From: Flavobacterium cyanobacteriorum
Lineage (GTDB): Bacteria > Bacteroidota > Bacteroidia > Flavobacteriales > Flavobacteriaceae
Reading direction: 5' to 3'
Length of the DNA stretch: 35,247 nucleotides
Assembly (NCBI RefSeq): GCF_002251835.1
Contig: NZ_NOXV01000302.1
Span: forward strand, 29,735 to 64,981
The position numbers and the translations under genes are program-made. This document shows positions 17,595 through 20,718 of the stretch, in pieces; the stretch's first letter is position 1, and each line of letters begins with the position of its first letter. Under the pieces are notes generated by a model. The model had not been told where the DNA came from. It saw only the letters and a program-made list of their open reading frames with translations, and searched no databases.

Positions 17595-17602
17595 TAGTTT
17601 TG
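17595..17602 (+). promoter_or_regulatory. candidate -7 box for the tail-fibre-like/subtilisin pair
   Basis: TAGTTTTG matches TAnnTTTG fully and lies 28 bases before the ATG at 17630. A TTTA at 17574-17577, 17 bases upstream, is a weak -33 candidate. The 115-base gap after the acyltransferase stop is very AT-rich and supports an independent promoter for this gene pair. Confidence 0.5.
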
Positions 17603-17629: not shown

Positions 17630-18649
17630 ATGAAAAATTTATTTTCAGCAGGATTTTTTTTATTATTTCTGCAATTTTCAAATGCACAAACTACAATTTA
17701 CACAGGTGATGGAACCCTTTCAGCGACAAGGACTGTAACAATGAATGGAAAACATCTGACGTTTAAACCTACAACGGGTTCTGTTTTTATTAATGGCTCA
17801 AATGGTAATGTAGGTATAAATACTTCTTCTCCTTCAGAAAAATTAGATGTTAATGGAAGTATAAGGGCGAGTAGCGCTAAATTATCAAATTCATTATCAA
17901 ATGGACAGACCTTTACTTCTTGGGAGGATAGAAACTTGAAATGTCAGGTTTTAACAGGTGGAATGGTTATAGATGTGCCTTCACAAGCTCGATTACTAAA
18001 TTTTTTTGATTTTCCTTCTTCAAACTATAATCCTACCCCAGAAGTTTTTTTTACAATAGCTGATAGAAGTGCAAAAAATAGGTTTGCATTTAATGCAGAG
18101 CAGGGTAGTGGTGGATATTTTAGATTATTTGATAAAAATCAGGAAATAAACTTTAGAGTTACAGATGATGGTAACAGTTCTGTTACTATTGATTTACCAA
18201 AAACAAACTCCAGAATTGTTGTTGGAGGTTGGGCTAATTATTTACCTGAGCATAAATTTGTAGTTAGAGGTAGTTCAATGATTGAAGGAAATGTTCTAAC
18301 AGATTCAAACATCGGTATTGGTACATCATCTTTCACGGATGGTTCTGATAATTATAGATTATCTGTAAATGGAAATATAAGAGCGTATCGGGTAAAAGTT
18401 TATACAACTTGGGCAGATTATGTATTTGAAGATGACTATGAGTTACCCACACTTGAGGAAGTGGAACAACATATAAAAGAAAAAGGGCATTTAAAAGACA
18501 TACCTTCAGCTAAAGAGGTTGAAGCAAAAGGTATTGAATTAGGTGAAATGAATAAGTTGCTGCTACAAAAGATTGAAGAACTAACTTTATATACTATAGA
18601 GCTTAATAAAGAGCTAAAAATATTAAAAGAGCAACTTAATAAAAAATAA
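17630..18649 (+). CDS. secreted tail-fibre-like protein with C-terminal coiled coil
   Basis: This 339-residue protein has a signal peptide ending near SNAQ (residues 17-20). It has two copies of a tail-fibre-type motif: NVGINTSSPSEKLDVNGSIR at about 60-79 and NIGIGTSSFTDGSDNYRLSV from 227. Between them is a beta-rich segment of about 140 residues with no recognised motif. The C-terminus has the block common to Bacteroidetes tail-fibre-domain proteins (YELPTLEEVEQHIKEKGHLK, then DIPSAKEVEAKGIELGEMN) and ends in a Leu-rich coiled coil (about 306-339) likely to trimerise. Unlike many relatives it ends at the coiled coil, without a recognisable chaperone or sorting domain. Its stop is one base before the subtilisin start, suggesting joint expression and perhaps a structural or substrate relation. 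Confidence 0.82.
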   Translation: MKNLFSAGFFLLFLQFSNAQTTIYTGDGTLSATRTVTMNGKHLTFKPTTGSVFINGSNGNVGINTSSPSEKLDVNGSIRASSAKLSNSLSNGQTFTSWEDRNLKCQVLTGGMVIDVPSQARLLNFFDFPSSNYNPTPEVFFTIADRSAKNRFAFNAEQGSGGYFRLFDKNQEINFRVTDDGNSSVTIDLPKTNSRIVVGGWANYLPEHKFVVRGSSMIEGNVLTDSNIGIGTSSFTDGSDNYRLSVNGNIRAYRVKVYTTWADYVFEDDYELPTLEEVEQHIKEKGHLKDIPSAKEVEAKGIELGEMNKLLLQKIEELTLYTIELNKELKILKEQLNKK

Positions 18650-18650
18650 A

Positions 18651-20690
18651 ATGAAAAAGAGCTTATTAATTTTCTACAGCTTATTTTTCTTATCGGCATA
18701 TAGTCAGAAACAGGAAAGGCCAATTTATTCGTTCTATGTCCACATAAATAGCTATTCTAATGCACCGAAATTTGAACAAGTAGGTAATAAGTTAATTTAT
18801 AGTGGTACTAATTTAGAAGAAAAAGATTTTTTTTCTAAATATGAAATCCTGCAATTTGAGCAATCATTTCCAGCATCAAAACGTATAAATACCCTCAACG
18901 TATTTAGTGTCGTAAGCTATAATAGTAGTCTTCTTCAAGACATGAAAAAAAAGTTTGACAAATATTTAATATTTGAGGAAACTACGGGAAATAAAATCGA
19001 GTTATTAAATTCTTATCCAAACGATTATGGTTCCACAAGTCCTGTCATAAATTTAGGAGCAAACGCCAGTAGAAAAGATTTAGATTATATTAACGCGCCT
19101 AAAGCATGGGATATAACTACAGGGTCAAATCAAATAAAGATTGGGATTTCTGACAGTAATATTGACACTACAGACGTTGATTTGCAATTGAAAACACAAA
19201 GGTTATTTCCTTTAAGAAATATTTATACTAATCCTGCTTATTTTGATGTGAATAATACAGGTAGTTGGCATGGTACTTCTACAGCAAGTTTAGCTGCTGC
19301 CCAAGGAAATAATGGTGCAGGTACTGTAGGAGTTTGTTATGATTGTAGTATTGTTGCAAATTCTTATACATACTTTTATAATCATCAGGGCCAATCTTAC
19401 AACATGCTTTTACAATTAGCACAATCAGGTGTTAAGGTTATTAATATGAGTTGGGCTATAATGTTGGTATCCGAGGGATATACAGCGGAACAATGGATTA
19501 TTGATGAAATAACCGAAGATTATAATGTTGTAATGGTTGCTGGTGCTGGTAACAGAACTTCTTTTGCAACAACAAATTCTAATCATTCTGGGGCAGGAGG
19601 TGGGTATTATACAGGTATACAATATGGTTATCCGGCTAGTTATGATAAGGTAATTTCTGTATCTGGAATCAATCATACATATTCTCAAATGACGGATACA
19701 GGTGCTTATTGTTGTACATCTGATTGGTTTCCAAACTATGTCAATATTGAAGATTCAGTATCACCTGTGGTAGATGGTACAGATATCCAAAATCCTATAG
19801 GAGTCACACATAATGGCTATTACCAATCACCTACAAACACAAATGGTTTAGTGTGGATGCATACTCTTAATAAGCATGTTGATATTTTAGCTCCTAGTTA
19901 CAAAATTTTTCAGGCGCCTTGGTATAGTCATAATCTTACAGAAGTTTATGGATCTGGAACCTCCTCTGCGGCTCCTCTTGTAACAGGTACAGTGGGCTTG
20001 ATGGTTTCAGTTGATCAGTGTCTGAATTATAAAGAAGTTGAAGATATTTTACAGCTAACTACAAAAGATGTAGAACACATGCCTATAAATCAAAATTTTT
20101 ACGGTATAGTTGGTGCGGGTAAACTTGAAACAGGTGATGCTGTTGAATTTGTCGCTGAAATGATAAGCCCTACAGGTAGTGCAGTAATAGATAATCATAT
20201 TTTTTATAGGTTCAACTTCGAATTAAATAGGATTAATAATAGGCTGTCAATTCAAAATGTGGTATTTAAAGATAAATGCACTGCAGATTTCACCGCTCGG
20301 AATATTGTTGATGTTTTGCCAGGAAGTGATTTGGCACCAAATGCTGAGGGTTTTATTGATTTAAAAATTGATGCGAATCTTGATATTGGATGCAGCAATA
20401 CCAGCAGAATTGCTGCCAGGGAAAAGGAGAAAGTAAGTAAGAATGTAAATGCAATAGCTGAAACAAAGCTTTTTCCGAATCCTAACAATGGAATATTCAA
20501 TATAACTTTGGCTAATAAACATAATAGCGTAAATATCCAAGTTTTTGATATATCAGGGAAGCTAATTTATGAAAATAAAGCAACTGGCGCTTCATTTAGT
20601 ATAAGCCTTCCGGGTATTGCACCAGGTATTTATCTGGTAAAATTGTCGTCAGATACTTATTCTGAGACAATAAAGTTTGTTAAAAAATAA
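18651..20690 (+). CDS. T9SS-exported S8 subtilisin-like serine protease
   Basis: This 679-residue secreted protease has a signal peptide (about 1-18, cut near AYSQ), a propeptide-like region to about residue 140, and an S8 catalytic domain. The likely triad is Asp168 (in IGISDSNID), His207 (in SWHGTS) and Ser438 (in GSGTSSAAP), with the oxyanion Asn301 in AGAGNR. The aspartate is followed by Ser-Asn rather than the usual Thr/Ser-Gly. A linker follows, then a type A T9SS sorting domain from about 606 (LFPNPNNGIFNITL, later ISGKLIYE and ends IKFVKK). It should be exported across the outer membrane and released or anchored. CYDC (229-232) and GAYCCTSDW (351-359) could form disulfides. Substrates are unknown; the adjacent tail-fibre-like protein is one candidate partner. 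Confidence 0.93.
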   Translation: MKKSLLIFYSLFFLSAYSQKQERPIYSFYVHINSYSNAPKFEQVGNKLIYSGTNLEEKDFFSKYEILQFEQSFPASKRINTLNVFSVVSYNSSLLQDMKKKFDKYLIFEETTGNKIELLNSYPNDYGSTSPVINLGANASRKDLDYINAPKAWDITTGSNQIKIGISDSNIDTTDVDLQLKTQRLFPLRNIYTNPAYFDVNNTGSWHGTSTASLAAAQGNNGAGTVGVCYDCSIVANSYTYFYNHQGQSYNMLLQLAQSGVKVINMSWAIMLVSEGYTAEQWIIDEITEDYNVVMVAGAGNRTSFATTNSNHSGAGGGYYTGIQYGYPASYDKVISVSGINHTYSQMTDTGAYCCTSDWFPNYVNIEDSVSPVVDGTDIQNPIGVTHNGYYQSPTNTNGLVWMHTLNKHVDILAPSYKIFQAPWYSHNLTEVYGSGTSSAAPLVTGTVGLMVSVDQCLNYKEVEDILQLTTKDVEHMPINQNFYGIVGAGKLETGDAVEFVAEMISPTGSAVIDNHIFYRFNFELNRINNRLSIQNVVFKDKCTADFTARNIVDVLPGSDLAPNAEGFIDLKIDANLDIGCSNTSRIAAREKEKVSKNVNAIAETKLFPNPNNGIFNITLANKHNSVNIQVFDISGKLIYENKATGASFSISLPGIAPGIYLVKLSSDTYSETIKFVKK

Positions 20691-20693
20691 TTT

Positions 20694-20718
20694 AAAGCCG
20701 GTTTAAAACCGGCTTTTT
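20694..20718. terminator. bidirectional rho-independent terminator
   Basis: AAAGCCGG at 20694-20701 pairs with CCGGCTTT at 20709-20716; the stem can extend into the AT-rich centre. It is followed by T on the plus strand, and the flanking sequence is A-rich on the other side, so it can serve both directions. It lies immediately after the subtilisin stop and beside the convergent glycosyltransferase stop. Confidence 0.85.

Follow-up and report, generated by a model that had tools for sequence, protein, structure and literature searches.

Mosaic adhesive trimer (MAT) fibres of Bdellovibrio bacteriovorus, among them Bd2133, Bd1334 and Bd3182, are described in passages of PMC10769870 as trimeric adhesins with S74 or other tips and a conserved N-terminal beta-rich domain of ~130 amino acids (aa). 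A subtilisin exported by the type IX secretion system (T9SS) is likewise on record, as SspA of Riemerella anatipestifer, in a table passage of PMC10202324 that mentions no fibre partner. We analysed a stretch of 35,247 nucleotides from Flavobacterium cyanobacteriorum (contig NZ_NOXV01000302.1), referred to throughout as the window, in which a gene for a secreted fibre-like protein is followed after one base (junction TAA-A-ATG) by a gene on the same strand for an S8 protease with a type A T9SS sorting domain. What the protease shares with SspA is the kind of enzyme, a T9SS subtilisin. The component parts are of known kinds, and no description of the fibre-enzyme pairing, or of the partner rule set out below, was found in open-licence PMC papers.

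The conserved C-terminal domain of the fibre, for which we coin the name FIBC, offers the basis for comparison with other fibres. A profile built from 48 FIBC proteins hits Bd2133 (8ond) at 1.8e-13, with weaker matches to three further MAT sequences, and both groups have VGxGT..P...L motifs, a signal peptide and a variable body. Unlike the MAT fibres, the fibre in the window is paired with a T9SS enzyme, is much shorter and is a presumed trimer, and the FIBC domain alone matches over the motif part only (E 0.007). Fibres with an S74 or intramolecular chaperone domain, from phages and MyRF, carry a motif of the same type before the C-terminal domain; the profile match to MyRF is weak (0.0084), and fold matches to phage S74 proteins reach 5.1e-5 at best with TM-scores of about 0.1-0.2. 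The fibre differs from them in lacking both an S74 match in Pfam (E 1 or better) and an SDxxxK motif. In cohesin-dockerin display, interchangeable enzymes with one common module are mounted on a common partner; the likeness is one of logic, and in the present case a separate fibre gene lies next to the gene of each enzyme, and the enzymes are T9SS cargo.

The two proteins and the conservation of their pairing

The fibre begins with a Sec signal peptide, read by eye, that ends before Gln20, a residue invariant in 13 relatives; an end at Gln agrees with the Bacteroidota Q-rule as given in PMC5837995. The preliminary description of the locus had reported two NVGIxTSSP-type motifs and a C-terminal coiled coil. 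The first motif is present at residue 60, where NVGINTSSPSEKL also follows the MAT-type beta-helix pattern V-G-x-G-T-x-x-P-x-x-x-L, whereas the second, at residue 227, is a variant that lacks the proline; the long helix near the C-terminus is predicted with high confidence and is a candidate coiled coil. The AlphaFold2 model of the fibre (pLDDT 77.5) is confident in the middle beta domain and the C-terminal helices and leaves residues 200-234 unresolved. Fold searches of the model found nothing in the PDB at E 0.001 or better and 12 weak matches among viral structures. In a second look OspA came first (Z 8.9 over 83 residues), and 8onc, a MAT fibre, gave Z 5.7 (131 residues); we claim no fold for the modelled protein. 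Pfam gave only a sub-threshold match to Laminin_G_3 (E 0.4) and NCBIfam none, and neither recognised a sorting domain on the fibre. Alignments indicate that the fibre body varies among pairs and that the FIBC C-terminus is constant.

The protease matches PF00082 (8e-28), PF18962 (9.4e-14; 51.9 bits, cut-off 27) and TIGR04183 (2.1e-15; 56.4 bits, cut-off 23). It has the fold and the Asp-His-Ser triad (D168/H207/S438) of peptidase family S8, and its model (pLDDT 81.9) matches subtilisins; beside the subtilisin domain and the sorting domain, the model has a beta module, predicted with confidence, at ~510-573. All three triad residues are present in 34 of 37 aligned relatives, the exceptions being L064_6 (a possibly broken gene), L067_14 (cut by a contig end) and L067_10. 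By its C-terminal sorting domain the protease qualifies as predicted type A cargo of the T9SS, one of 41 PF18962 matches in the window's genome.

To place the pair in its family we surveyed 249 Flavobacteriaceae genomes, taking protease matches at E 1e-20 or better and fibre matches at E 1e-5 or better. The protease subfamily is present in 34 genomes and the fibre in 101, and FIBC is found in 33/34 genomes with the protease versus 68/215 without it (P 7e-14, counted by eye). At the protease locus itself a FIBC gene lies in 31 of the 34: 14 genomes have the two genes as immediate neighbours in the same orientation (that of the window, G019, G039, G042, G072, G090, G105, G118, G134, G138, G161, G179, G198 and G206) and 17 have them at a common locus; the protease genomes with no FIBC at the locus are G041, G076 and G243, and in G243 the locus is truncated by the end of a contig. 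Gaps between fibre and protease genes in the usual order are -23 to +10 bases, with open reading frames (ORFs) called from the first start codon. The same pair is found in Flavobacterium salilacus (L061, 2-base gap) and in G925 and G955, which belong to a different family of the same order. The adjacency is therefore not unique to the window's genome, the outcome that the preliminary description had named as refuting its two-gene cassette, and the recurrence of the pair in many genera and a second family supports the cassette. G090 holds two pairs, and in G090 and G105 a short and a long version stand side by side, which suggests that duplication may have taken place in these genomes.

At the 17 common loci the FIBC protein is short (about 151-206 aa as called) and is accompanied by an ABC ATPase of 226-237 aa and by an S8 protease in convergent orientation; most of these loci also have a neighbouring gene of about 1000 aa. 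At L071, the single such locus scanned with Pfam, the long gene is TPR-rich and the ATPase is ABC_tran. With half of the 34 protease loci at this other location beside an ABC ATPase, the surface-glycan setting proposed for the pair is not general. Wider searches scored three candidates per genome, so that their counts are lower bounds and carry no claim of absence: the protease profile was found in at least 2/395 phylum genomes and the protease in at least 6/395 order genomes, the order-wide search giving no match in the 20 same-genus genomes listed. Fibre and protease sequence distances correlate over all 34 pairs (r 0.53, 0/2000).

In G072 (L064:7783-9605) the protease next to FIBC is spread over two ORFs, of 131 and 456 aa, and the gene may be broken.

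As a control for chance we used 12 whole genomes, chosen non-randomly for carrying FIBC, 10 of which also have the protease and two of which (G085 and G240) have FIBC alone. Together they hold 42 FIBC loci and 73 S8 segments, and 12 of the 73 segments lie within 2.5 kb of FIBC versus 0.33 expected by random placement, so the adjacency is not due to chance. Exactly one FIBC gene is present in seven of the 12 genomes (G000, G134, G179, G118, G206, G188 and G085). In six of these the single gene is at the protease locus (one gene away in G188), and in G085 it stands directly before an M12-like metalloprotease with a T9SS tail whose Pfam score is just below the cut-off. The same seven genomes together encode 387 T9SS tails, which argues that FIBC is no general companion of T9SS cargo.

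Partners of FIBC genes and the coathanger module

To these we added 47 further loci, 40 picked by fibre similarity and seven fetched for fibre matches. Runs of FIBC genes are followed by 50 genes, of which we kept the 42 that are co-directional and within 300 bases (seven on the opposite strand and one with a gap >300 bases were dropped). These neighbours, whose families overlap, include 12 with a T9SS tail, eight with RHS repeats, five tyrosinases and five OmpH-like proteins; in control genes from the same loci PF18962, absent from the 25 families listed, occurs in at most 2/120 and RHS repeats in 6/120, giving P 1.5e-6 for the T9SS tail if the count is taken as two. The T9SS partners are varied. 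By single scans they comprise tyrosinases (L116, L128, L213 and L222), BNR proteins (L144 and L200), a beta-helix protein with a tail just below the cut-off (L127), and proteases of the M12 (L096, below the cut-off, and L197), M36 (L196) and S8 (L194 and L220) families.

Many FIBC partners share a second feature, a 3-coathanger stack domain (GCX_COOH, NF045639) just before the sorting domain, which NCBIfam reports in 9 of the 42 downstream genes; a search by name found no paper on this domain among open-licence PMC papers. In the 12 selected genomes there are six coathanger copies, two of them near FIBC versus 0.04 expected. A survey of 199 family genomes (E 1e-6 or better; several loci end too early for an upstream gene) gave 29 coathanger genes, 12 with a co-directional FIBC gene immediately upstream and 16 with FIBC within three genes upstream. 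Directly upstream FIBC accompanies 12 of the 14 coathanger genes with a T9SS tail, the exceptions being L195 and L212, versus none of the 15 others (P 1.8e-6), three of which (L206, L208 and L211) were scanned and 12 judged by C-terminal residues or size. The 12 cases come from nine genomes, and among tail-bearing coathanger genes new to the survey FIBC is upstream in six of eight.

The protease in the window appears to carry a divergent copy of this module before its sorting domain. Compared with a profile of 28 coathanger copies, its residues 512-588 score 32.0 (probability 87.5, P 3.6e-6, one comparison), and none of 100 column shuffles exceeds 15.6. Among 24 sliding windows along the protease, the three that hold most of the module score 27-32 and the other 21 score <10.

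Several further kinds of gene were seen after FIBC genes. Very long RHS-repeat proteins follow directly in L124, L118, L119, L123, L129, L137 and others. A gene for an OmpH/Skp-like chaperone stands directly after a FIBC array in L100 (7272-7850), and similar C-termini occur in L097, L120, L122 and L125. Tyrosinases with a T9SS tail were noted after a FIBC gene in L116, L128, L131, L136, L140 and L213, and a tyrosinase in L212 has no FIBC upstream. A small protein of ~152-155 aa follows FIBC genes in L101 (7484-7939), L115, L117 and L142; the L101 copy, which was scanned, has no Pfam match.

A proposed fibre-displayed enzyme and the alternatives

The explanation that we favour, while stopping short of calling it probable, is that the two genes form a conserved cassette by which an enzyme is displayed on a fibre. 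It builds on the adjacency, gene order and short gaps seen across genera, on the swapping of partners, on the presence of one module in many of them, and on the active-site residues and sorting domain of the enzyme. The first gene would encode a secreted, probably trimeric fibre-like protein with a constant FIBC domain and a variable body. The product of the second would be an enzyme exported by the T9SS, in this case a subtilisin, whose sorting domain closely follows a module of the coathanger type. Fibre and enzyme would probably be made from one transcript and could join by way of FIBC and the coathanger module, with the fibre body then holding or aiming the enzyme at the cell surface. Since no sorting domain is recognised on the fibre itself, the fibre may leave the cell together with its partner, with the enzyme's sorting domain leading export. 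The preliminary description had allowed that the protease either processes the fibre or is displayed with it; its observation of the pair is confirmed and its interpretation partly supported, display together with the fibre being the role that would fit best.

Several observations weigh against fibre display. The gene order is reversed in G179, and fibre and protease distances show no significant correlation when the long (r 0.18, 281/2000) and the short group (r 0.25, 86/2000) are taken separately. The 17 common-locus proteases have no sorting domain by BLAST (by NCBIfam also for L071), and the directly adjacent proteases of G118, G206, G198, G042, G039 and G161 have no BLAST match to that of the window. 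RHS and OmpH-like genes also come after FIBC, as do small T9SS proteins, among which L130 has no coathanger match. As for the module, NF045639 itself does not list the protease in the window, a comparison with six coathanger copies is weak (probability 47 local, 2 global), and half of the 12 positive cases (L198, L217, L218, L220, L221 and L222) were already known before the survey.

The fibre might instead act in trans as a periplasmic chaperone, inhibitor or export helper, in the manner of an intramolecular chaperone, folding or silencing the enzyme until export and outside any surface complex. That the fibre gene usually comes first with a short gap, that conservation in the long pairs is higher for FIBC than for the protease, that FIBC genes also precede OmpH/Skp-like genes and that Pfam and NCBIfam find no sorting domain on the fibre would all suit such a helper. 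A dedicated chaperone of one enzyme class would not be expected to have a body that varies between pairs, the family profile matches adhesive MAT fibres, and neither an S74 match nor the SDxxxK motif is found, so that we hold this role to be unlikely. Maturation or shedding of the fibre by the protease, for which SphB1, which matures filamentous haemagglutinin in Bordetella, is a model, would explain why a protease with a complete active site sits beside a secreted fibre, and other proteases (M12, M36 and other S8 enzymes) also follow FIBC genes. FIBC equally precedes tyrosinases, BNR proteins and beta-helix proteins, and these partners disfavour processing as the general reason for the pairing; it could still apply to the pair in the window, and overall we consider it quite unlikely.

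The RHS repeats downstream of FIBC and the profile match to Bdellovibrio MAT fibres also allow for a cassette for attack on neighbouring cells, in which effectors, either of RHS type or enzymes, would reach their targets or remain on them with the aid of FIBC fibres; partners such as tyrosinases and BNR proteins give no hint of toxins, and such a function looks improbable. Mere coincidence could be entertained where FIBC is abundant, as in G019 (13 genes) and G240 (nine), yet it can hardly account for the genomes whose only FIBC gene is at the protease locus or before an M12-like partner, for the excess of S8 segments near FIBC or for the pair in a second family, and the counts come close to refuting it.

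Fibre display admits a wider form, which we regard as possible but doubtful: FIBC and the coathanger module would be a general docking pair of the Bacteroidota surface, by which co-exported fibres of constant base and variable body, themselves without a sorting domain, carry swappable T9SS enzymes (S8, M12, M36, tyrosinase, BNR and beta-helix). If so, this would be a modular display of stalk and enzyme with the logic of cohesin and dockerin and with phage-fibre-like parts. Should the paired proteins form a complex, both the coathanger domain and a common fibre domain, left unnamed by Pfam and NCBIfam in the window copy, would gain a function, and it would become clear how enzymes are mounted or aimed once the T9SS has secreted them. 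The partners of FIBC genes could then be predicted from gene order, and a fibre without a sorting domain is predicted to depend on a partner that bears one.

Features of the locus and further observations

The positions of the features discussed are collected in Table 1.

Table 1 Features of the fibre-protease locus, in window coordinates
Feature	Position	Strand	Basis
Weak promoter candidate TAGTTTTG, fits -7 box TAnnTTTG	17595..17602	+	Box at chance frequency in window
Fibre-like protein, 339 aa	17630..18649	+	ORF, alignments; Sec signal peptide read by eye
First fibre motif NVGINTSSP, residues 60-68	17807..17833	+	Sequence; PHROG tail matches over residues 49-88
Middle beta domain, about residues 98-195	17921..18214	+	AlphaFold2 model
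Second motif NIGIGTSSF, residues 227-235	18308..18334	+	Sequence
FIBC domain, conserved C-terminal part of fibre	18311..18646	+	Alignments, profile
Long C-terminal helix, residues 304-338, coiled-coil candidate	18539..18643	+	AlphaFold2 model
S8 protease with T9SS type A sorting domain, 679 aa	18651..20690	+	ORF, PF00082, PF18962, TIGR04183
Subtilase catalytic domain, D168, H207, S438	19128..20105	+	PF00082, alignment, structural model
Divergent coathanger-type module (putative), residues 512-588	20184..20414	+	Model, profile comparison
T9SS type A C-terminal sorting domain	20469..20687	+	PF18962, TIGR04183
Intrinsic terminator hairpin, usable on both strands	20694..20716	.	Folding z -4.4

A shared promoter for the two genes, as the preliminary description had proposed, is unsupported above chance. 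The Bacteroidota -7 box, TAnnTTTG, occurs 49 times in the window versus 46.5 expected, and sigma-70-like sites 15 times versus 16.2. A search for TTTG-N14-24-TAnnTTTG gave two sites where 4.4 were expected, none close to the pair. The terminator attributed to the pair is indeed strong, with equally good folding in 0/200 shuffles, but it sits between convergent ORFs, and the ORF on the opposite strand also ends there. The pair is AT-rich as described, with a G+C content of 32-34% versus 40% for the window, and the three preceding genes are likewise low (33%).

A phage origin of the fibre was also considered and not adopted: INPHARED phage genomes gave no match to the fibre (tblastn, 1e-3), and its PHROG tail matches are limited to the stretch around the first motif. 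Fifteen IMG/VR viral-contig loci (L179-L193) do encode FIBC, two of them in proteins of 1741 and 1744 aa; these may be phage genes or host flanks.

Finally, one FIBC array (L110:643-2973) is divergent to a type II/IV secretion ATPase (T2SSE 1.4e-127) and a pilin-like gene (3.7e-4, below cut-off), and L113, L125, L129 and L137 have gene lengths and order similar to this region; among the control genes T2SSE occurs in 5/120 and T2SSF in 3/120.

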